Positions 14,586 through 44,752 of a DNA stretch of 64,000 bases are shown here, in pieces. The notes under the pieces are model-generated. The model was not told the origin of the DNA. It saw only the letters and a list, made by a program, of their open reading frames with translations, and did not search any database. How positions within the stretch are numbered: the stretch's first letter is position 1; each line of letters opens with the position of its first letter. This DNA is from Oncomelania hupensis (taxonomy: Eukaryota; Mollusca; Gastropoda; Littorinimorpha; Pomatiopsidae): assembly GCA_036898135.1 (NCBI GenBank), contig CM072520.1, positions 2,432,343-2,496,342 on the forward strand. Direction: 5' to 3'. The position numbers were made by a program, and so were the translations under genes.

Positions 14586-14775
14586 ACCAGCTCAATTCCT
14601 ATGTCAGCAGCACTTTTCAGTGCCTCTGCTTTTCGCATGTTGTGGGCTTTTTATAGCTTGCCTGCACCCCCCTTCCAGTGAAAGGCAGCATCGGCGAAGA
14701 TATTTATAGCTATCCTGGCTGACCTAACCTCAAAATCTGAAAAGCTTTGGTTGGGCCGCTGTGTGCTTACAGTTC
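14586..14775 (+). repeat. R2 repeat, copy 1
   Basis: ACCAGCTCAATTCC to AAAGCTTTGGTTGGGC matches 17317-17485, which is nested in a TTAA element. About 180 bp, noncoding. The ends share a short CACAC-type inverted match (clearer in the other copy), so a small DNA transposon is possible. Confidence 0.7.
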
Positions 14776-16631: not shown

Positions 16632-16699
16632 CATGACAGTCTAATTAAATAGTAATGTAAACAAGAACAAAATAATTTATCAACTCTTAACAATATTAA

Positions 16700-17571
16700 C
16701 TCTTAGCGTCCTATAAGGTTTTCTGTACATTTGCGCCTATATCCTGTAAGGATTTCAAGTTTATTGCAATAAATTGGGTTATGAATTTTAAAAAATTGCA
16801 AAAAATTTATTTATTGTCACATTAACTTCATATTTTAGTATATGTTTACAAAATGGTTATTCTATGTACCCAAAGAACCAATTTGACTTTAGTACTATTT
16901 TTACCTGTTGGAATCTTGTAATTCATAATTACAGGTATTTTATGGACTATGTTAATAAAACAACAAGAAGACAGTGTGGATTGCATGTGAATGTGTGCAG
17001 TCAGTCAACACAGACAAGAAAACTCACTCTGGTTGTCTACACCAAGTCCTTGTGCTCTTTCAGCAATAAGCTCATCAATAAAGTTACAAAATTCACTATC
17101 ACTGTCGGAGCTATCCCATGCCATCATGGCCGAAAATTTCGCAAACTAAAACCTCAAACAAAATCGTTTAAAAAGTACACAAATCCACGTCAAACTTACG
17201 AAAACGATAGCGGAAAACACACGGGAACCTTTCCAGAAGTTGACTAAACCTCTCACGCACTGGAGAGTTCCTATTTCCTGTGATTTCATGACTAAAAGGT
17301 GCACTAATGCACACCAGCTCAATGCCTAAGTGAGCAGCACTCTTAGGTTCCCCCCCATTTTGCTGGCTGCGGGCTATTTATAGATTGCCTACACCCTCCC
17401 TTCCAGTGAAAGGAAAGGAAAGAAGCACTGGCGAAGCTATTTATAGCTAGCCTGGCTGAACTAACCTCAAAACCTAAAAGCTTTGGTTGAGTCAGTGTGA
17501 ACGAGGCGCGCATTACCGCGCTTCAGGATTACGGGCGAGGCGCGCATTACCGCGCTATAGAACGCTAAGAG
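16700..17571. mobile_element. TTAA-flanked element 1 (deletion derivative)
   Basis: Flanked by TTAA (16696-16699, 17572-17575), with terminal CTCTTAGCGTCCTATAAGG on the left and the complement CTCTTAGCGTTCTATA on the right: piggyBac-type target and end. The right end has two copies of GAGGCGCGCATTACCGCGCT. From 16733 it matches 22792-23441, but everything between the splice acceptor of the second exon and the left end is deleted. It keeps exon 1 on minus (M near 17127, DSSDSDSEF...IDELIAERAQGLG). R2 copy 2 is nested in it at 17310-17499. Confidence 0.85.
17310..17499 (+). repeat. R2 repeat, copy 2, nested in element 1
   Basis: Absent from the corresponding place in the related element at 23350-23380 (GCACTAACGAGGCG is continuous there), so it is an insertion. 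It matches 14586-14775. Confidence 0.8.
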
Positions 17572-17575
17572 TTAA

Positions 17576-19310
17576 ACAAAATACACTCAACACAAAGATC
17601 ATACATTAAAAGATAACAACTTTATAATGATGCCTATCTTTATAGACAATATTCAGATCATGTACATTTACAAGCCATAAAAATCATTCTCTTTCCATAA
17701 CAAGCTTCAACATCCTCTGCTTTCTTCCACCATCTCGATCCGCAGTGTTTCGCAGCCAGTCCTGCAGGACTTTCTTAATTTGACAGTTGCTTCCTTCGTG
17801 GGTCCATTCTGTCTTACAGCACCCGGAGTAATAAACAAAATTTAGGTCAACATTTATTTGCCTAAAATAACGGATCTTGTTTATGCCACTATGTGAGTAT
17901 ACACTGCGAGAATGTACCTCTTTAACATTATGTAAATTATTCATCAAATATTTTACTTCATAATTTATGCCTGTCTTTACTTTATAAGTTTATTTTCAGT
18001 CTACTGTAAAGTTTAAAAATTGATTGTGAATCTACACAACTATACTCATTCTAAAACTAATACTATTACATTCAACTGCTGTTAAGTGCTCCGCCTGTCA
18101 AGTTGTTTGGCCCAATGCAAATCAGTTATTGTGCACTTGTACAGACAGGTATTTCCTCTTACAGCTGAACGAACATAATCCAACTTGTACAGTTATATGG
18201 CAGGTTTCATAGTCTTGCATTGGAGAGTGTCCCAAAAAAAACAGGGTAGAAGGTGAAAAATAAAATGTTATATTAGGGTGTTTTGATATTGCAGGGTGAA
18301 AGTATGACCTTTGAACTTTCAAAAACAGTCGTTTACAGAGTCAGCTCATGCCCAGTTTTCAAGTTATAGGTGTTGCAAGTACGCTACATGGTTTTCTATT
18401 AATAATTCAGTAGCCATAAACATTTGACAATGTATGCAGATATCATGCCATTTTATGTTCATAAATGATTGAAGGCATAATCATAGAAATGTGTGAACAG
18501 GATTTGTGTATTTAGACCACAAAGGAGTGACTTTGTGCATGGATTTTGTGCCCAGTTTTTCATTTTGCTGTACGCTCGCACTTAATCACTCTTGCACACA
18601 CACAAATAATGTAAAACATGGAAGAGTTATGGTACTGGAGTAAAGTATATTTATTCCTTTATACCATCAAAACAAATAGAATCATATACCTCCATATATT
18701 TTGGTCAAAAGTGTTGAAATTCTTCCCCTACCCCCTAAATTTCCCAATACGCCAAATGGCGTATCAAGACAAACTTGCATCAGTGGTTACAAAATGCATA
18801 CATTTCATCATAAAACTTATTGCAGTGATACATCTTTGACAAAAATAATTTGTTTTACACATGTATCTGCGTACACAACGTGCACACTCAAATATTGTTT
18901 TCAAAAAAAGATAATTACGAACAGAATTATACTTGTAAGTTGTATTCTTTCTTTCGATTTCACACATGTACGCAGAAAAAAATATATCTAGTACACAGTA
19001 CCAGCTCAGATGTACAACACATTTAAATGATCTCTCTCTCTCTCTGGAAATGTATAACAAGGATACTCACACAGATTTCAGTAAAGAAAGCACAAATTCA
19101 GATCAACATATAATTATTTGTATTAAATATATGAGTTCGTCTTCAGTACTGAGCACCAAAAACAGGAAAATAGGATGAAAAATAAAAATAAAGCTAAAAA
19201 GGAAATAATTCATGTTTTAGACATGCCAGACCAAGTATTATACAATTCTGAAAAAATAAAATAAATATATCATAAGGTGTTGAAACACTTGATGAATGAC
19301 TAAGGGGGGT
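17576..19310. other. No recognised gene
   Basis: Short ORFs only. A perfect 8-bp inverted repeat ATACGCCA/TGGCGTAT lies at 18747-18764, and a short (TC)n at 19029-19045. Confidence 0.5.
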
Positions 19311-20099: not shown

Positions 20100-20420
20100 A
20101 GGCACACTTTAAAATGATCTAGCAAATACAGTACATTATTTATTGTCAGTATCGGGAAAAAATATAATCAGTTGACAAATTCTAAAAACAAACAAATGTC
20201 AAACTAAAGCATTGGTAGCAAAAATTACTCTCCACACTACATTCCCTCAAAATTAACAGTCAACACACATGAAAATGATCCAGCGAATCCAGTTCATTTG
20301 TTGTACATTCATTAGCATATTGGAAAACGATTAATAAAGAAACCAGTAGTAGTAATTAAAAAAAAATTCGTGGGCAAAAACATTACTCAAAATTCAAAAC
20401 CCTCCACCCTCCATTCCCTC
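20100..20420. repeat. Diverged tandem duplication, about 165 bp
   Basis: AAAATGATCTAGCAAATACA near 20111 corresponds to AAAATGATCCAGCGAATCCA near 20272. The following CACTACATTCCCTCA corresponds to CCCTCCATTCCCTCA at about 20405. Two old tandem copies. Confidence 0.55.
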
Positions 20421-20596
20421 ATACTGTTCCCAGTCGGAACAAAGCAAACTTCTGCTATAATCATGTCCAAGGACACAAGTTGCACATCATCAGCTGCTGG
20501 GTAAAGAAAAAAATGACTTCTTTTTTGTGTGCTCGAATCTGACACGGCGTGTATCTTTATCAATATTGTCGGTGACAACTGCTGCACACGATTCAA
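20387..20596 (-). pseudogene. C-terminal fragment like the OTU-element protein
   Basis: A 69-codon minus frame with FFLYPAADDVQLVSLDMI. It resembles YYVFPPNDDVSVVSLCEAKI at the end of the OTU protein at 21.8 kb. It is probably the 3' end of a second gene of that family. It lacks the protease domain, and similarity is by eye over about 25 residues. Confidence 0.45.
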
Positions 20597-21768: not shown

Positions 21769-22811
21769 TCAGTTGAAAAAATGTCGTCCCCTGTTATCAA
21801 TAAGTGGCGGGTCAACCACCTCAATCTTAGCCTCGCAGAGAGACACAACTGACACATCATCATTTGGTGGGAAAACATAGTAAGTGCCATTTGGCCTCAG
21901 ATACTTCACAAAAAACTCTCCTTCTTGTAAAGGTATATCAACAGGAGCAGGAATGACCATTCCGTAATATGTGACCGTATTCCTTTTGACAGTAAAGCTG
22001 GCCTTTACAAAGACCCCAACTTGGGGAACCTGCCCAACCCCTTCCTCATGCAAAAATCACAAGCTGAGGTTTCTTCAAGGACTGCTTCATTCAGATCTAC
22101 CCCTCTGACAAGAGGTACAAAATGATTTGGTACCCATCGATTCTTGTCGTCCCCTGTTTCTAACTTTCCTGTGGATGTCCACATGATGTAAATGGGAAAG
22201 TAAGCGTTGCCATCTCCATTAGGCACAAATGGCCTGTTTAAGAATCTGCGTGCCACCTGGTTGCCTGCATTTGGGTGAACAGAATGAACACACCTTCTCA
22301 AAATACTTGCAGCTGCATGTATTTGGAAAGGGCCCAGATCTTTTGACCCTGTGACTGCTGCCATTGCTTCTTCTTTGTAGGCTGAAAAGAGGTCTTTGTC
22401 TACAAAGTCACCTGTCATGTGATAGAAATGAAGCAGCTCGCATCCATCCAAATTAGTCCCTTTACTAACAAACTCTGGTGAGAGGTAGGAGTTTTTATTC
22501 TGGACCAGTTCGCACGCTATTCAAACCCTGAGTTCACTAATTTTATCAGTAGTGTCCCCAAATGCCGCAGCAGACAGAGAGTGGAGCAAACAGTGCCCAT
22601 CTGCTCTGCTTTTCTTCGGAAACCTTCCTGCTGGTGTGACATCTGGGGAAAGAATACCTTGCGCTGCCTTATCTAACTCAGCTAGGGAGAAAAGTGGCTC
22701 TGTGTCAGGACATTCCAAAGGGTATCCCTCAGATTTCTTTATGTAATCTTGGACACACTCTTCAAAAAACCTGTACCCCAACGCTTTAGCTCTGCGCCTA
22801 TATCCTGTAAG
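21769..22811 (-). pseudogene. OTU-type cysteine-protease-like protein, main exon
   Basis: From the splice acceptor CTTACAG at about 22812, the exon reads GYRRRAKALGYRFFEECVQD, then SRADGHCLLHSLSAAAFGD. The Asp-Gly-x-Cys-Leu motif carries the catalytic Cys of an OTU domain. A TGA interrupts at about 22519 (after ISELRV). The same frame resumes with LDGCELLHFYHMTGDFVDKD, LGPFQIHAAASILRRCVH and NHFVPLVRG, which supplies the catalytic His. A frameshift near 22040 leads to the last frame (21769-22053), ending NDDVSVVSLCEAKIEVVDPP. OTU proteases remove ubiquitin; here the domain resembles vertnin-like transposon-associated OTU proteins (inference). Decayed by one stop and one frameshift. Confidence 0.75.
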
Positions 22812-23437
22812 GATTTCAAGTTTATTGCAATAAATTGGGTTATGAATTTGAAAAAATTGCAAAAAATTTATTTATTGTCACATTAACTTCATATTTTAGG
22901 ATATGTTTACAAAATGGTTATTCTATGTACCCAAAGAACCATTTTGACTTTAGTACTATTTTTACCTGTTGGAATCTTGTAATTAATTCATAATTACAGG
23001 TATTTTATGGACTATGTTAATAAAACAACAACAAGACAGTGTGGATTGCATGTGAATGTGTGCACAGTCAGTCAACACAGACAAGAAAACTCACTCTGGT
23101 TGTCTACACCAAGTCCTTGTGCTCTTTCAGCAATAAGCTCATCAATAAGGTTACAAAACTCACTATTACTGTCGGAGCTATCCCCTGCCATCATGGCCGA
23201 AAATTTCGCAACCTCAAACAAAATCGTTAAAAAAGTTCACAAAACCACGTCAAACTTGCGAAAACGATAGCGGAAAACAAACGGGAACCTTTCCGGAAGT
23301 TGACTAAACCTCTCACGCACAGGAGAGTTCCTATTTCCTGTGATTTACTGACTAAAAGGTGCACTAACGAGGCGCGGTTTACCGCGCTTCAGGATTATGG
23401 GCGAGGCGCGCATTACCGCGCTATAGGATGCTAAGAG
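22792..23437. mobile_element. TTAA-flanked element 2, right part (carries the OTU gene)
   Basis: The right end ATAGGATGCTAAGAG abuts TTAA at 23438-23441 and is preceded by two GCGC...TTACCGCGCT repeats, as in element 1. The OTU gene runs leftward out of the shared region, so the element extends at least to 21769. I could not find its left CTCTTAG end. Confidence 0.7.
22972..23194 (-). pseudogene. Exon 1 of the OTU-element gene
   Basis: ATG at 23194 opens MMAGDSSDSNSEFCNLIDEL and then ERAQGLGVDNQSEF. The exon ends at CCAACAG followed by GTAAAAAT, a good donor, and the acceptor of the main exon is about 160 bp further. An in-frame TGA after SCLC shows decay. The same acidic start exon occurs in element 1 (near 17127) and element 3 (28542, MAESDSDNES...ERADQLGNKNQSD), so it defines the family. 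Confidence 0.65.
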
Positions 23438-23441
23438 TTAA

Positions 23442-27875: not shown

Positions 27876-28112
27876 CTAAAGGAAAAACATACAAAGAGAA
27901 AGAAAAAGATGTCAAAATTTTTAAACTAGAAAAAGTACAAATGGATGAAAGACAAATTTGAAAAATAAACGAATTTCCCTTTTATTTTAACCCTAATACT
28001 AATAGCCTTATAATTATATAAATAGTACCTTAAAAATTGCACAAAAGTGCAGAGGAAAAAAGCATTAAATTACCCAATATTAACATATCCTGATCTTACT
28101 TTTTACATTTAA

Positions 28113-28800
28113 AACTCTTAGTCTCATATAGCAAAACAGCACATTGATCTTCTCCTTCATGTAAGGATTTGACAAAAACAAGCCAAAAATAGGTGCATGT
28201 GTTTAAAATGCTATATCTACTGAATGGTTGGTCAGAGCTTCATGGGACTTAGTCAGTGTGTAGATAATTGGTAACTATGCAAGTATTGAGTAAGCTTTAG
28301 TTCTGTCAGTGTCATCTGTCTGTGTTACCTGCTATTTTACCTGTGATTATAGGTAATTTCACAACCAATTCTTCGGATGATGAAAGGTCCAATCTGTAGT
28401 CGGAATGATCGCTAGTGTGCACACTAGACACTGACAAATCACTCTGATTTTTATTCCCTAACTGATCAGCCCTTTCATCTACTAATTGCTGCCACAACTG
28501 CTCATATCATGTAGACTCGTTGTCGGAATCAGATTCTGCCATTTTTAGAGTTTCCCCGCTCTCGAAAAAGCGACCAAAAACTAAACAAAAACTTCGATTA
28601 AAACGTGTTGTTGACACAACTGCAGTTGACAGGAAGGAAGTACACTGCTTTTAGAATCAGCTAGTGCGCATGCGCAATTGGAACTGGTTTCCGTTAAGTG
28701 GGAGAGAGGTGCTAAAAGTAGACGGTAACTAGGCGCGCTTTACCGCGCTTCATGAGCCGTGACGAACCACGCTTTACCGCGCTTCATGAGACTAAGAGTT
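28113..28800. mobile_element. TTAA-flanked element 3 (non-autonomous)
   Basis: TTAA at 28109-28112 and 28801-28804 flank AACTCTTAGTCTCATATAGC and, inverted, AACTCTTAGTCTCATGAAGC: 20-bp ends with two mismatches. Right-end subterminal repeats GGCGCGCTTTACCGCGCTTC and CACGCTTTACCGCGCTTCAT parallel those of elements 1 and 2. It carries only exon 1 of the family gene (28347-28542, minus). Confidence 0.88.
28347..28542 (-). pseudogene. Exon 1 of the TTAA-element gene, element 3 copy
   Basis: MAESDSDNEST, then a TAG stop, then YEQLWQQLVDERADQLGNKN and an acidic/Ser stretch to a donor ATCACAG|GTAAAA. It is homologous to the exons at 23194 and 17127. A perfect TGCGCATGCGCA (NRF-1-like) lies 123 bp upstream at 28665-28676. 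Confidence 0.6.
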
Positions 28801-28930
28801 TTAATGATTATGGATTGATATTGCTAGCCGTAATTGTCTCCATTAAGGCAGTGTGCACCAATGTTCTTATCTGATGTTTAACAATGCACAATCGCTTTTC
28901 ACATTTGATCTGACACAGATCATCTGTCAA

Positions 28931-35158: not shown

Positions 35159-36996
35159 AGGGCTCGAAATTAGCGGGGGCCCGGGGCCAAAAACCCGCAA
35201 AGTTGATTTCGGGCTCGGAAAGTTGAAAAACGAAGGGCCCGCTTGGCCCCCGCAAATAATTCGTCTGATAAGCTAGCTCTACTCGGCAGTTTCGTATTTG
35301 GGTCAAGGGAAGCAACCCACACCGGTGCCCTAAATTTGGACAGAAAAAAAAAACAGAGAAAAGAAGCGAAAACCCTTTAATTTTGCACTCAAAAGTTTAA
35401 TATACACTTCAATATCTTTTTAATATAATAAACAAAAGGCTATGGCACAACATAAGCGCAAAATGTCCATCTTTGCAAGTACGAAAGTATGGCTACATAT
35501 CGTCGCCATATAGTTGCTAAAACAATCGGCAATGGCGTATTTTCCAATATTTGGGAACCCCTTGGGGTCATGAGCAATCTTGCCACTGTAGATTGTTCTA
35601 ACCTATAAAGGGTACAGTGAAAGCCCCAGTTGAAAACCTGTCTTGCCTTTGTAGGCATGACAAATTAACTGTGGCAACAGTTCCCCCCGTTGGAGTGCCG
35701 GGGGTTTCAGTATAAATAGTATCCCCACTTTCTGGAAATTTAGTGCTTTAAATTCCCACTGTCGCTGTCTTCCTCATTTGCTCTTTCCCATTCCCGATCT
35801 GTCCTACCACTCTGCTATACTATCTTCTTCTTCGCTAGATCAATGACCTACCTTTTTTCTTGAAAACTCTTCCTGGACAAGACTCCTTGTTTGTGTATGG
35901 GGTCTGTTGGATCAGCTTGGGAGTGTTGGACGCTTTCTGCCGGGTGGTCACTAGGGCTTCCTATGAATGTACTATTTAGCAATATAGGCATTTTATATGT
36001 ATGTTTTTTGTTGATGATTTATAATGATGTTTGTATTCTATTTTGTTTTTGTAATCGGGGAGTTCGCGTAGTTGAGGTCAACCCTCAGCCGTCCCTCGCG
36101 TGGGATGTCTTTATTGTAAAGTGACTGGCCGGTGGAGGGCATTCAATTTTCCCACTGGGGTTGTTTCAACAGATCTTTTATGCGGATCGGGGGTTGTCCG
36201 GTCCTGATTTGGCTCGGAAGAGTCCGCTGGACCTAAAGCAATAATAAATCAATCAATCAAACCAATATTTGGGAAGCGAAAGACGCCAGAAGAAAACGTA
36301 GACGAAAGGAAAGAACAAGAAAAAGAGAGAAAAAAGAAGTATGAAGAGGAAAAAAGATCAAGGAACTACAATGAAGGGTGGAAAAAAATATTTCCTTTAC
36401 TTCTGTTAACTCAAGTGCACATAAGTGTAATATGAATAGATGATTGAAAAAAAAGAAAAGGCAAAATCTGTTTGTTTTAGTTTATCAGGAAGAGTACTGT
36501 TAAGTTTAGTTCCCTTTCATGGTTTTGTTTTGAACTTTTGTGCATTGAGGTCAGATTTTTTTGTTAGGTTACTCATATTAAAAATTTAATGATGTGTATT
36601 GTGCAATACTCCGTCACAAAACTAAGAATTATTATACAAGAGACTCACTTGATTTTTTTCTATTTTGTTTATTGGCCATTTCAGGCTCACTAGTCACTGG
36701 AATATGTGTGTCACTGAATGTGTGTGTGTGTTTTTTCCCCTATTTTGTTGGTAATGTTTAAAAGTGAAAGAAAAGGCAAATAAAAATGACATCACTCAGC
36801 AAAATTGGAAATTCAATTGTTTTTATTTTAGATTATCAGACAAATTGTACTTTCTACTTATTATATTGTCAATAATTCTTTTGTTTTTTGTTTGCATTAT
36901 TTTTCAAGTTGGGCCCCGAAAGTTGTTTGTGGGCCCTCAAATTTTTCAATCAAGGGGCCCGGTGGCCCCCAAAGAAAAAAGTTAATTTCTAGCCCT
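35159..36996. mobile_element. hAT-like element nested in piggyBac
   Basis: Ends AGGGCTCGAAATTAGC and (inverted) AGGGCTAGAAATTAAC are flanked by GGGCCAC (35152-35158 and 36997-37003), a 7-bp (possibly 8-bp) target duplication. Inside, the plus frame at 36262-36435 reads KERKKKYEEEKRSRNYNEGW and KKIFPLL, like the lead-in (R.F...W...FPWL) of ZNF862/TTF-type hAT transposases. R1 copy 3 (35679-36262) lies inside it. Both ends also carry GGGGGCCC-rich inverted subterminal sequence. Confidence 0.82.
35679..36262 (+). repeat. R1 repeat, copy 3 (longest)
   Basis: The fullest copy: CCCCCCGTTGGAGTGCCGGG, TATAAATAGTATCCCC, GATGTTTGTATTCTATTTTG, CGTGGGATGTCTTTATTG and the complete GGTCCTGATTTGGCTCGGAA tail with (AATC)n. 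The simple tail and tail-only copies elsewhere indicate LINE-type mobilisation. No protein domain is visible. Confidence 0.85.
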
Positions 36997-38090
36997 GGGC
37001 CACCACCACTTCTTGCAGCGAATTACCGTTCTGTACTTTGCCATATTCTGGTCTGTGCGGTCCACACCGCCCATAGTGTAGTTGTAATGGCGGATCATGA
37101 AGGGTTGAGGAATGGTGACTTGCTTTGATTCAGCCCTTGACCATCTGTTGGCTGTCTGACGTGGTTGCACTCCTACATTGTTTGAAACAATATTGACGAT
37201 GTAACGGATGTTGTTGTCATTCCACCGAACAACAGTGAGGCCAGTCTTTTTGTCGGTTGCATGGTCATAGGTTCCGCTTGGTGTCTTCTTCATCTCGTTT
37301 ACATTCCTCAAAGGGCAATCCTGAAGGTGATTTACACGTATCGTTCCTGTGCATGCATCCACCAGCTGCAGGCTTGTGAACAAATTGTCAAACGTGAGAT
37401 GGTATGAGCTACCCTCTTCTTGCAGCTCTGCAATGAGATCAGCAACAACCGAACCCCCCATTCCAAGTCCTGGGTATTCAGTTTGGCGTCCTCTTGCACC
37501 TTGATAGGGCTCAAACTGGATGACATAGCCCAGAGGCTTGCTCAGCATCCACATCTTATAACCAAATCAGAAACTTTTCATTCATGTGTGTCAGCACTTT
37601 GCTCATCTTGTCAGCAGCATCCAGATGTGCGTTATCACTGACATGGAAATACCGCAGCATTTCTTCAAAGCGGTTTCTTGACATAGCAGACTGAACAGCA
37701 TCCTTCCCCACATCCTCATCTGAAGACCAATCCATTCATCTCCTGGGCACAGGACTGTATCCAGACAGGAGTAGAATGGCAAGAAAGGTCTGGATCTCTT
37801 CAGGTGTGGTTAAAAATGTCAAGTTGCCCTTGGATCGTGCATATATCTTGCTAAAATCAGCAAAGGTTTCAAGGATTTCTTTGTCAAAGAAGCACTCAAA
37901 CAGATCAACTGAAGAAGAAGGCATTTTCGACAGGTCAACATCTGTCTTGTTCCAGGAAAAGTGTTGCTTTTGCCTATTTGACAGATCTGTATTTCTCCAT
38001 TTTCGTTGATTTATTGCTGCTTTCTTTGAAGATGGAGCTTTAGTTGCTGCAGTTACTTTAAGATCTTCTGCTGACACTCGCACACTCAAG

Positions 38091-38610
38091 GTTCCCGTCA
38101 CCCGCACTAAGACATACGGCCAACGTGCATTCGCTTACTCCGCACCTAAGCAGTGGAACTCCCTTCCCTCCCATATCCGCAACATACAATCAACACAAGC
38201 ATTCAAAAAGGCCCTCAAAACCCACCTCTTCAAACTTCACTATTCAGAATGATCTGTATCCCGCTGCCATTCTCTCCTCTTTGTCTCTGTCTGATCCGTA
38301 AGTGTATACACGGCTGTACATATTTATACTGTTCTTCCTCCTGGGCCTAACCGGGCATATAAATAGCTGTGAATATGTTTTTTGCTATTCTATTTGTCTT
38401 TTCTGTCATGTGTGTACATAGTTGTAAATTGTAATTTGTGTACATAAATGTAAATAATTTGTACCCTTATTGTTCTGTCTTTTGGTGTATTGTAGCGAAA
38501 GCGATGTTTTATCAAGTGCATGTACTTATATGTAATGACTATGTAAAGCGTGGTGAGTCTGGTCATAGGCTGGAGTATCCGCTATATAAAAATCCGTTAT
38601 TATTATTATT
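38091..38610 (+). mobile_element. 5'-truncated L2/CR1-like LINE nested in piggyBac exon
   Basis: A plus frame TYGQRAFAYSAPKQWNSLPS, HIRNIQSTQAFKKALKTHLF ends at a stop near 38250, the usual C-terminus of CR1/L2-type LINEs. A 3' UTR follows, ending CCGCTATATAAAAATCCG and (TTA)n. It splits the piggyBac reading frame between MGRKRK and VSAEDLKVTA. No target duplication was seen. Confidence 0.88.
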
Positions 38611-39057
38611 ATTACTTTCCTTTTTCTCCCCATGGATGTAGAAGGAATTGGTGCTGCATCGTCTGACTCCAAGGATTCTGAATCCCCAGATGCATCTTGC
38701 ACTGTCCCTGTGGCAGCAGGAGCACTCTGAATAGGAGCACTGATATTCTCTGATACATCAGCAGATTCCTCCATCTCATCATAGGACACTTTTTCACCCT
38801 GTCTCCGGATAGTGACAGTAGCAGGAGCCTGCAGCTGATTTCTGTTTAGGTTGGAGACAGTACCATCTTCATCTTCGTCTCCGCTGTCCTCATCGGTGTC
38901 TTCATTTGTAGGAGGGGGTTCAATAAAGATGTCAGCTTCTTCAAAGTTAGCATCATCTTCCAGCATTGATACCACTTCATGAACAGTAAAAATCCTGGAC
39001 AAAAGCAGAAAAAAACCAGTATGTAGTATAAGCAAAAACCCCTCTCCTCTCATGCCC

Positions 39058-39079
39058 ACCGTCCCATTTTTGGGACGGT
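39058..39079. repeat. 9-bp perfect hairpin in piggyBac intron
   Basis: ACCGTCCCA and TGGGACGGT around TTTT. A looser GTCCCAAAAATGGGGG occurs at 34484, outside the gene's other end. Confidence 0.8.
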
Positions 39080-39383
39080 AAACATATACAGATCAGTACA
39101 TATTCAAGTTATCATCAAACTGACAAAAACATATCCAGATAACAGTATAGTCTCTAGGTTTTGTTCTTAGTGTTATACTGTATATAAAAGTGTAATGTAA
39201 AAAAAGTAATCCTTACCTTTTCTTGGTTGCCATGTTGATGCTGCAGGCACCAGCTTTTTTCTGCAAATGGCAGCTCTCACTGCTAGCGTGAAGGGAAAGT
39301 ACTCAAACAAAAACAATGCCTGGATGCAGTGATGTCCCCTGATTAACACAATAGGCTGCTGAGTCACAGTGTAGCAGTAATAC

Positions 39384-42763: not shown

Positions 42764-44338
42764 CTACTTGTTTAGTTTCTTGTCCTTGTGTAATTCGGCA
42801 CCTCTTTTTCCTTTTCTTAGGTCTTTATTAAACAGTTTCACAAAATGAAATACGCGAATGTTACAATATAATAAGATCTGCTCAAGTAATACAGCAGAGT
42901 GAGTTGCATTGATGGAACACAACAATTCTTGTTGAATGTCTGGATCCATCACAAACTGAAAGAATTGACTGTCGTGGATGGGGCAAATTCAATATATGCT
43001 TTGTCATGCTTTGAAAATGAAGCTCAAATTTGTGGCAAAGAGTGGTGACAGGTGGTGTGATTTGAGTTAGGGCACCTTTTACATATTCTTTTAAATCTGT
43101 TAGCGTGTTTGTTTTTTCATTAGTTTCAGCCTCTGAAGCTGACACTGCAAGCAACTTTCTGCATTGTTCACAAATGTCCTTTTTGCTGATCATTTTCTAA
43201 CAGACCCAGCAATATAATCACATATATTGGACTCCACCTGAGAAAGTTCTGTTTCTGCTATTGTAAATTCCCATTCTGGGTGGGATTGTACAATAGCAGA
43301 ACAAGTAGAAGTATCCATGTGGGAGTCCAGTGCTCCTTGGTTATCTATGTAGTCCTGATGCTGTGATGACTGGGGATGTGCATATGTGCATTTAGCATGT
43401 AGTTTCACTTATTTGATCTCTAGGACAATGTGTGCTGTGCACTTCACCCACAGATGTGTGTTCAGTATCATCCTCATTGGCTGTGTTGTGCACTACCTGT
43501 AAAGAATCATATTCGGTATCAGATAGGCAGTTGGCACCAGAACTGATAGTCTTGTTAAGCAATTCTGTAGTTGAAACAGAGTAAGTTAGACATCGGATGG
43601 CTGTAATATATGTACTCATTGTCGGGTGGTCATGAAAACCATGAAATCCTCTTATTTGTGAGTGCATATTTTCATTGTGGTCTTGATTACATTTTCGTAA
43701 ACAAAGAAATGTCATGAGCTTTTGGCCTGCAATCAACTGTGTTGAGAGTTTTTCCATGGCATTTAAGCACAAGATCCATCCATCATAGCTTGGCAAACGT
43801 GACATGTTTGTTTTCTTTAATGAATTTCCAGCTGTTAACAAATTCAATGAAGCGATCAAACTGGACCATGTTCGAGTCAAAATATTTTGCAGTCGCAGGT
43901 TTCTTACCTACTGGTGCACTGAGGTCATGAGAGTCAACTAAATCCCACATTGCATTAACAGTCCCCAGAAACAGAACTGTGTGCATTGCTTCTGCTGGAA
44001 GTTTTCCTATCTCAACATAAAATCTCATTGCAGCAGCAGCTGAATTGGAAAAAATCTGACAAGCCAGTGTTGCTTTCATTTTTTTCCCTCTGGGAATAGT
44101 GAAATGTTCTTCTGTCCACCGAGGCACTGCTTGTATGGGGTAAGTGGTGTCAATGCTATAAAGCATTCTAACATACAGCCACTTTCCTGTCATCTGGATG
44201 CCGTCAACAGTAAACTCAATATCTTTATTAATGACATTGTTTCTTACATTCTTAATGAGATGTGGAGGATCTTGGATTATAAATGCATCATTATTTTCGT
44301 AAATTCTGCTGAAACTGGCAACACTTTTTGTTTTCTGA
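42764..44338 (-). pseudogene. P-element/THAP9-type transposase, C-terminal two thirds
   Basis: From a probable acceptor (TATGCTCAG, about 44338) on minus: YENNDAFIIQDPPHLIKNVR (the conserved DPPHL core), MKATLACQIFSNSAAAAMRF (insertion domain), a frameshift near 43810, then CLRKCNQDHNENMHSQIRGF (the NQD..E..F.IRG block with the catalytic Glu region), YIAGSVRKMISKKDICEQCR and LKEYVKGALTQITPP. A second frameshift lies near 42960, then ILLYCNIRVFHFVKLFNKDL to the natural stop at 42764. The N-terminal THAP domain is absent. Two frameshifts and one frame change near 43395 make it inactive. Confidence 0.88.
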
Positions 44339-44752
44339 GCATACTAGAGTGTTCTGCATTGTGTTGTGTAAATACAGTGCCTTTTTATGCAATTTTTAAT
44401 TTTTATTAATTTTATACACCTCAGCCACTTTTGGGAAAAACGCGTTTTATTTTTATGTGAGGGTTACCCACTTTGAACAGTTAAATGAATGCCTTAATAT
44501 TGGCCGATTTTAACATTTTAATTTTTTTAATCTTCTAAAGGTTTGTACTATATACAAAAAATAAAAAACATCCTGAACCAAAATAAAATGTTCGTTGGTA
44601 ATACCTAATCTAAGTGTCGCTGAATGTCGTATGCAGAGCAATGCTGAACTCTTTGTTGCAATGAGCATAATGAACTCCTTTCGAAGATTCGATTATTCCT
44701 CAAAAACGTTCACGGTATTCGCGTAAGAAATGTTGTCGCACTTTTTGCTTAC

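Follow-up and report, generated by a model that had tools for sequence, protein, structure and literature searches.

A decayed OTU-type protease gene in the snail Oncomelania hupensis, probably a remnant of a DDD transposase with a built-in OTU domain

Introduction

Among described mobile elements, Ginger1 encodes one transposase polypeptide combining a DDE domain with a C-terminal OTU-like protease, in elements with introns and inverted repeats. OTU-bearing forms are described from Hydra, Aplysia and an aphid, and the same account gives CCGG/CCGT as target duplications and TGTNR as the ends, describes a core like that of Gypsy integrases in which H2C2 and GPY/F motifs occur, and proposes a DNA-repair role for the OTU domain (PMC2836005). 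Helentrons and animal Helitrons, which are Rep/helicase elements, are described as carrying an OTU cysteine protease as an additional open reading frame (ORF) (PMC4067079). In this work, we analyzed a minus-strand OTU-type protease gene, with its adjoining terminal repeat, at positions 21769 to 23441 of a 64,000-nucleotide stretch of the Oncomelania hupensis genome (assembly GCA_036898135.1, contig CM072520.1, positions 2,432,343 to 2,496,342), hereafter the window. An earlier note, made from the sequence of the window, had placed this gene inside a TTAA-flanked transposon and treated an OTU enzyme in such an element as unusual; the published descriptions of OTU-carrying Ginger1 transposases and of animal Helitrons and Helentrons provide precedents (PMC2836005, PMC4067079). 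We conclude that the window gene is probably (at a rough probability of 0.72) what is left, after decay and internal deletion, of an autonomous cut-and-paste transposon that encoded a DDD transposase in which an OTU domain lay between the catalytic core and a small C-terminal domain.

Other described systems bear on this locus by target site or by protein. Kolobok elements are described as duplicating TTAA, as present in molluscs, as having 5'-RR ends and a C/DxxH motif before the third acid, and as carrying accessory enzymes in some lineages; as accessory proteins, that account names nucleases, a helicase and KolX but no OTU (PMC9587614). Vertnin is classed as an inactive OTU homologue without the catalytic residues (PMC10318531), and a paper on soybean CACTA elements includes otubain genes in an annotation table of a bacterial artificial chromosome. 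Our survey of the open-licence literature returned no OTU domain with a TTAA transposon or its transposase and no piggyBac element with an OTU domain; it returned OTU domains in Ginger1 and in Helitrons/Helentrons.

Results

The gene outlined in the earlier note (a start ATG, an acidic exon 1, a GT-AG intron and a main exon with DGHC and NHF motifs, all on the minus strand) was upheld as a model, with splicing predicted from sequence only, whereas its intactness was not. Exon 1 (23095..23194, start ATG at 23194-23192) encodes the acidic peptide MMAGDSSDSNSEFCNLIDELIAERAQGLGVDNQ and has a homologous stretch in the family of a miniature inverted-repeat transposable element (MITE) at 28109-28804. 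The predicted intron (22805..23094) has its GT donor at 23094 and an AG acceptor ending at 22805, and the main exon (21769..22804), a remnant of a linker, an OTU domain and a C-terminal domain, ends in ...IDNRGRHFFN and a stop. Alignment of OTU sequences places the OTU Cys codon (of DGHC) at 22592-22590 and the His codon (of NHF) at 22124-22122. At the DNA level, the OTU exon has two other copies, A and B, in the 1.45-Gb assembly. Comparison with them reveals two lesions in the window copy: an in-frame TGA at 22523-22521, which is common to copy A and is an Arg codon in copy B, and the loss of 16 bases, present in both other copies, at about 22057/22058 (site 22050..22064), which shifts the frame before the C-terminal part. 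The window gene is a dead fragment, and it also lacks the catalytic core.

The assignment to the OTU family came from profile and structure comparisons, by which the window gene is predicted to encode the remnant of an OTU-type cysteine-protease (deubiquitinase-like) domain. As a single sequence, it matched the Pfam OTU family weakly (E=0.0074, below the Pfam cut-off), and the OTU exon searched in the same way against the PDB gave no match. A profile of seven OTU sequences matched OTUD1 (E=2.2e-5), OTUD5 (about 7e-4) and A20 (about 8e-4). Cys and His are invariant in all seven (the window sequence is one of them, and two are copies of one family), in line with the conservation among copies on which the earlier note had made its reading depend, and the OTU fold, with which it had proposed to compare the protein, is clear in the predicted structure of an intact relative, L048, described below. 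Its second C-terminal relic, at 20387-20596, found no support: among the 1,252 window ORFs with a length of at least 30 aa that were searched with the profile, this was the best after the true one, with E=0.44. A genome-wide search with PF02338 gave at least 144 OTU matches (150 of 254 candidates scored), and several OTU families appear to be highly repeated in the genome. Dozens of equal-scoring frames, often of about 451 aa, are among these matches.

The evidence that ties this domain to a transposase comes from copy A (C10:69637632) and its relatives. In copy A, a domain with DGCAAQYK and HGKGEAD motifs precedes the OTU exon in the same frame, so that a DDD-transposase-like domain stands where the window copy has exon 1, the intron and the right end; copy B, a truncated copy, is split by an insertion. 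Searching the PDB with the frame of copy A as a single sequence gave no match, nor did Pfam on its DDD part. Searching the genome with this 389-aa frame (106 of 139 candidates scored) gave at least 99 matches, among them intact frames of 1029 aa (L048), 944 aa (L061, L062 and L064), 1073 aa (L070) and 1112 aa (L073); a fourth copy of the 944-aa family, L063, has a frame of 838 aa. The intact relatives hold a cysteine cluster, the DDD region, the OTU domain and a C-terminal stretch in one frame, preceded in L048, L070 and L073 by a basic N-terminal part, and several families have near-identical copies in this genome. The predicted structure of L048 combines the OTU domain with an integrase-like RNase H domain in which three acids (D445/D531/D568) are in register, the domain that is gone from the window copy. 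Pfam searches with the DDD part of four intact relatives and two other proteins gave sub-threshold lines only (among them Zn_Tnp_IS91 at E=0.012 in L073).

These fusions bear on the nature of the window gene in three ways. First, the OTU domain is most likely the remnant of the C-terminal half of a transposase and not a separate cargo gene; the idea put forward in the earlier note, that an accessory OTU enzyme protects or replaces the transposase, does not fit copy A and the intact relatives, in which OTU is part of the transposase polypeptide. The DDE transposase sought in the same element is likewise gone from the window copy and is present in the same frame in copy A and in the intact relatives. 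Second, OTU genes are generally known to be common in animals, and the locus might be an ordinary cellular deubiquitinase gene with a transposon landed beside it; however, in the closest relatives found the OTU is joined to a transposase-like domain, in families that are repeated within this genome, and sequences related to the DDD region also occur in records from Elysia and Aplysia, which leaves this explanation very improbable. Third, it might be a second gene, spliced and encoding OTU alone, that belongs to a non-autonomous element and whose functional short form supplies free deubiquitinase. The deletion is indeed in frame with exon 1, but this arrangement was found in one of the three OTU exon copies, with a stop and a frameshift, and the OTU-bearing intact relatives keep DDD and OTU together; we regard such a gene as highly unlikely.

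Not all relatives carry the OTU domain. In the L052 and L065 families the DDD region runs directly into the C-terminal stretch, and P0004 and P0016, records from Elysia and Aplysia, show the same arrangement without OTU. When a tree was built from the DDD region (24 rows of 269 columns, rooted at the midpoint), OTU-bearing proteins fell into two separate groups, one with copy A and L048, the other with L061, L070 and L073 (support 86/82); two further groups hold the OTU-less proteins. This split distribution implies either an ancestral OTU with repeated losses, or a gain of OTU or its exchange from one lineage to another. When the old families L070 and L073 are compared, the OTU part has 168.1 nonsynonymous differences over 428 sites and 98.9 synonymous over 124 (saturated), the same proportions as in the whole protein (946.1/2421 and 532.9/672). 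Since nonsynonymous changes are the rarer per site, the OTU domain was kept while these families lived.

The relative L048 has its DDD-OTU gene within a unit bounded on both sides. Its frame is contained in 6,249 bp (C2:23337688-23343936) with terminal repeats GGCAGGTTTCACA(A/G)TATTC matching at 18/19 positions and GTAA on both sides as a 4-bp duplication, repeats and duplication both read by eye. Matches at three other places in the genome start no more than two bases from its left boundary, one of these being just 84 bases long, at 76%. Whether OTU lies within the bounded unit could be judged on this relative alone, because the window copy has no recognisable left end; in L048 it does, with GTAA as the duplication. 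Inspecting the L048 element by eye, we recognised no acidic exon 1 in its 5' region. On the left side of the L061 family, TTAA and a GTCGGTTGTCAC repeat were seen; on its right side, the boundary search met another, abundant repeat and gave no convincing end.

The right end of the window copy consists of a 16-bp terminal inverted repeat (CTCTTAGCATCCTATA on the minus strand, 23422..23437) and the TTAA half of the target site (23438..23441). Allowing up to three mismatches, the 20-base end including TTAA occurs at three places in the window against none expected: the query itself (23422-23441) and both ends of a MITE at 16696-17575, which has TTAA on both sides and an unrelated insert at about 17308-17499. 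That insert repeats the 14586-14763 region at 77-85% identity. The heptamer CTCTTAG taken alone was rejected as evidence, being at chance level (7 in the window, 6.3 expected). The claim that the right end abuts TTAA and shares its repeat with two other elements is thus borne out for TTAA and for the MITE at 16696-17575, and fails for 28109-28804, a related but different family. Among the matches listed for the latter MITE are 40 other rows, of which 27 span exactly 28113-28800, so that the window copy seems to hold two extra bases inside its TTAA flanks. These flanks stand two bases outside the shared homology, as though AA/TT had come along from an earlier site.

A first search of the genome with the right end and exon 1 yielded 820 candidates; the best 40 of these were scored, and 29 loci outside the window were examined. 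All 29 carry the 16-bp repeat with TTAA at either end. The two repeats are under 2.5 kb from each other, most often about 690 bp, and the pattern used required TTAA and allowed up to three substitutions per repeat. In all 29 the match to the window ends at 22793, twelve bases into the main exon (in L027 it is split by an insertion). Past this junction (22793..22804, the last 12 bases common to the window copy and the MITEs), the window copy continues into the OTU exon; at the same place, copy A has the DDD domain. As the window copy and the MITEs break at the same point, they probably share some step of their origin.

The same junction could have arisen by chance, a MITE piece of an unrelated TTAA family and an OTU fragment of another transposon having been joined by rearrangement at 22793. 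Such a fusion would account for a right end absent from both other OTU copies, for a junction that coincides exactly with the MITE breakpoint and for the missing left end. However, the splice acceptor and the reading frame into OTU are preserved across the junction, the RYRR after the acceptor resembles a basic RYR motif in early coding exons of the intact relatives (for L061, as read by eye), and a rearrangement halting exactly at the MITE breakpoint is itself improbable. We therefore consider a chance fusion unlikely.

Several observations nevertheless weigh against a transposase remnant with a TTAA end. The exact coincidence of the junction with the MITE breakpoint is unexplained by a simple deletion. 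No left end was found for the window copy within the window at up to three mismatches, so that the repeats on both sides of the OTU gene reduce to the right one, and comparison with the genomic copies, by which the earlier note had hoped to place the left terminus, did not find it either. No CTCTTAG repeats were found in the 20 kb around copies A and B (up to 4 edits), and the repeats (GGCAGG...) and duplication (GTAA) of L048 differ from the CTCTTAG and TTAA of the window. With neither the left end nor CTCTTAG at copies A and B found, the link between OTU and TTAA rests on the junction 22793-22804 and on the analogy with L048. Copy A is itself broken, having two in-frame stops relative to copy B (one of them the shared TGA) and a degraded first DDD motif (IVDYWKP for VMDFAEN). 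Besides, a low-copy segment (18196..19132) recurs near both other OTU copies, at 38 kb from the OTU exon in copy A and 2.1 kb in copy B against about 2.6 kb in the window, which suggests segmental duplication rather than separate transpositions. The divergence among the copies looks neutral (0 synonymous and 9 nonsynonymous changes between the window copy and A, 1 and 9 between B and A, stop changes counted), recent copies within the intact families give no clear purifying signal (ratios of 0.64-1.55 in five pairs), and the OTU part of the L048 model is of only moderate confidence (10-residue means of 45-89). Taken together, the association of an OTU protease with a TTAA-inserting transposon, as claimed in the earlier note, is supported, for the window copy through that one junction.

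Other transposase-like sequences lie nearby. On the minus strand of the window, frames at 36982-39092 (MGGVDRTDQNMAKY...) are presumably remnants of a piggyBac-like transposase and a possible other source of TTAA transposition; the ends of these remnants were not located. Minus-strand frames at 43392-44343 (DPPHLIKNVRNN...) we take to be of the P-element/THAP9 type. In the region of copy B (C12:44248500-44268499, loci L045/L046), an intact 655-aa frame (MPSDKKRRGKRSIKRVFQGNRYG...), which we assume to be Mutator-like, lies about 5 kb from the OTU fragment.

Discussion

If the window gene derives from a DDD-OTU transposase, the DDD core of the full-length protein would cut and join element ends at TTAA-like sites, and the OTU domain, being tethered to the transposase, would be held near the element ends and their chromatin. 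There, it might remove ubiquitin from the transposase itself, thereby affecting its stability, or else from proteins of repair or chromatin where the DNA is broken, and the MITEs would presumably be moved in trans by the full-length enzyme. The window copy is capable of neither cutting and joining nor ubiquitin removal. It is tempting to go further and to see here an undescribed superfamily of TTAA/GTAA-inserting DDD transposons of molluscs and perhaps other animals, into which OTU was built early and from which it was lost in several lineages, ubiquitin removal being part of the transposition machinery; we offer this broader proposal tentatively, and hold it to be rather doubtful.

OTU domains have been fused to, or carried beside, unrelated transposition proteins in the published Ginger1 and Helentrons, and now in the present lineage. 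Repeated recruitment of this kind would point to ubiquitin control as a limit on transposition in animals. This genome holds families with the OTU domain and families without it, and near-identical copies exist for several of them, so that what the OTU domain contributes is directly testable.

Compared with the described systems, the lineage shares with Ginger1 the fusion of OTU to the transposase, introns, inverted repeats and, in the L048 model, an integrase-like fold. Its target sites (TTAA/GTAA) and ends (CTCTTAG or GGCAGG) differ from the CCGG/CCGT and TGTNR given for that group, and Pfam integrase families gave no match at E<=0.01 among the 25 members of our alignment, the H2C2 and GPY/F motifs not having been searched individually. 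Like Helentrons and Helitrons as published, it is a mobile element encoding OTU; in contrast to them, it has inverted repeats, a target duplication and OTU within the transposase frame. With piggyBac it shares the TTAA duplication. The piggyBac domain DDE_Tnp_1_7 was absent from L048, L061, L070 and L073 (E<=1, each scanned singly), and was matched at E=0.0047 in one of the 25 alignment members, probably P0018, whose end is a piggyBac-like stretch. Judged by its target site and ends, the lineage is not Ginger1; judged by domain search, it is not piggyBac. The OTU sequences described here keep Cys and His, in which they differ from vertnin as it is described in print.

Kolobok, as far as its published description goes, is approached by the TTAA at both ends of all 29 MITE loci, with GTAA in the relative L048; the ends are CT...AG in the MITE family, but GG...CC in L048, and inspection of the alignment by eye revealed no C/DxxH motif between the second D and the third acid, in a comparison made by description only. 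Sola3 is a further 4-bp, TTAA-type group, with which the lineage may share its target site. The lineage may belong to Kolobok or to Sola3, the latter being the main candidate home. Altogether, an OTU domain fused to a transposase is known, and what differs here is a lineage in which that fusion comes with different ends and a different target site.
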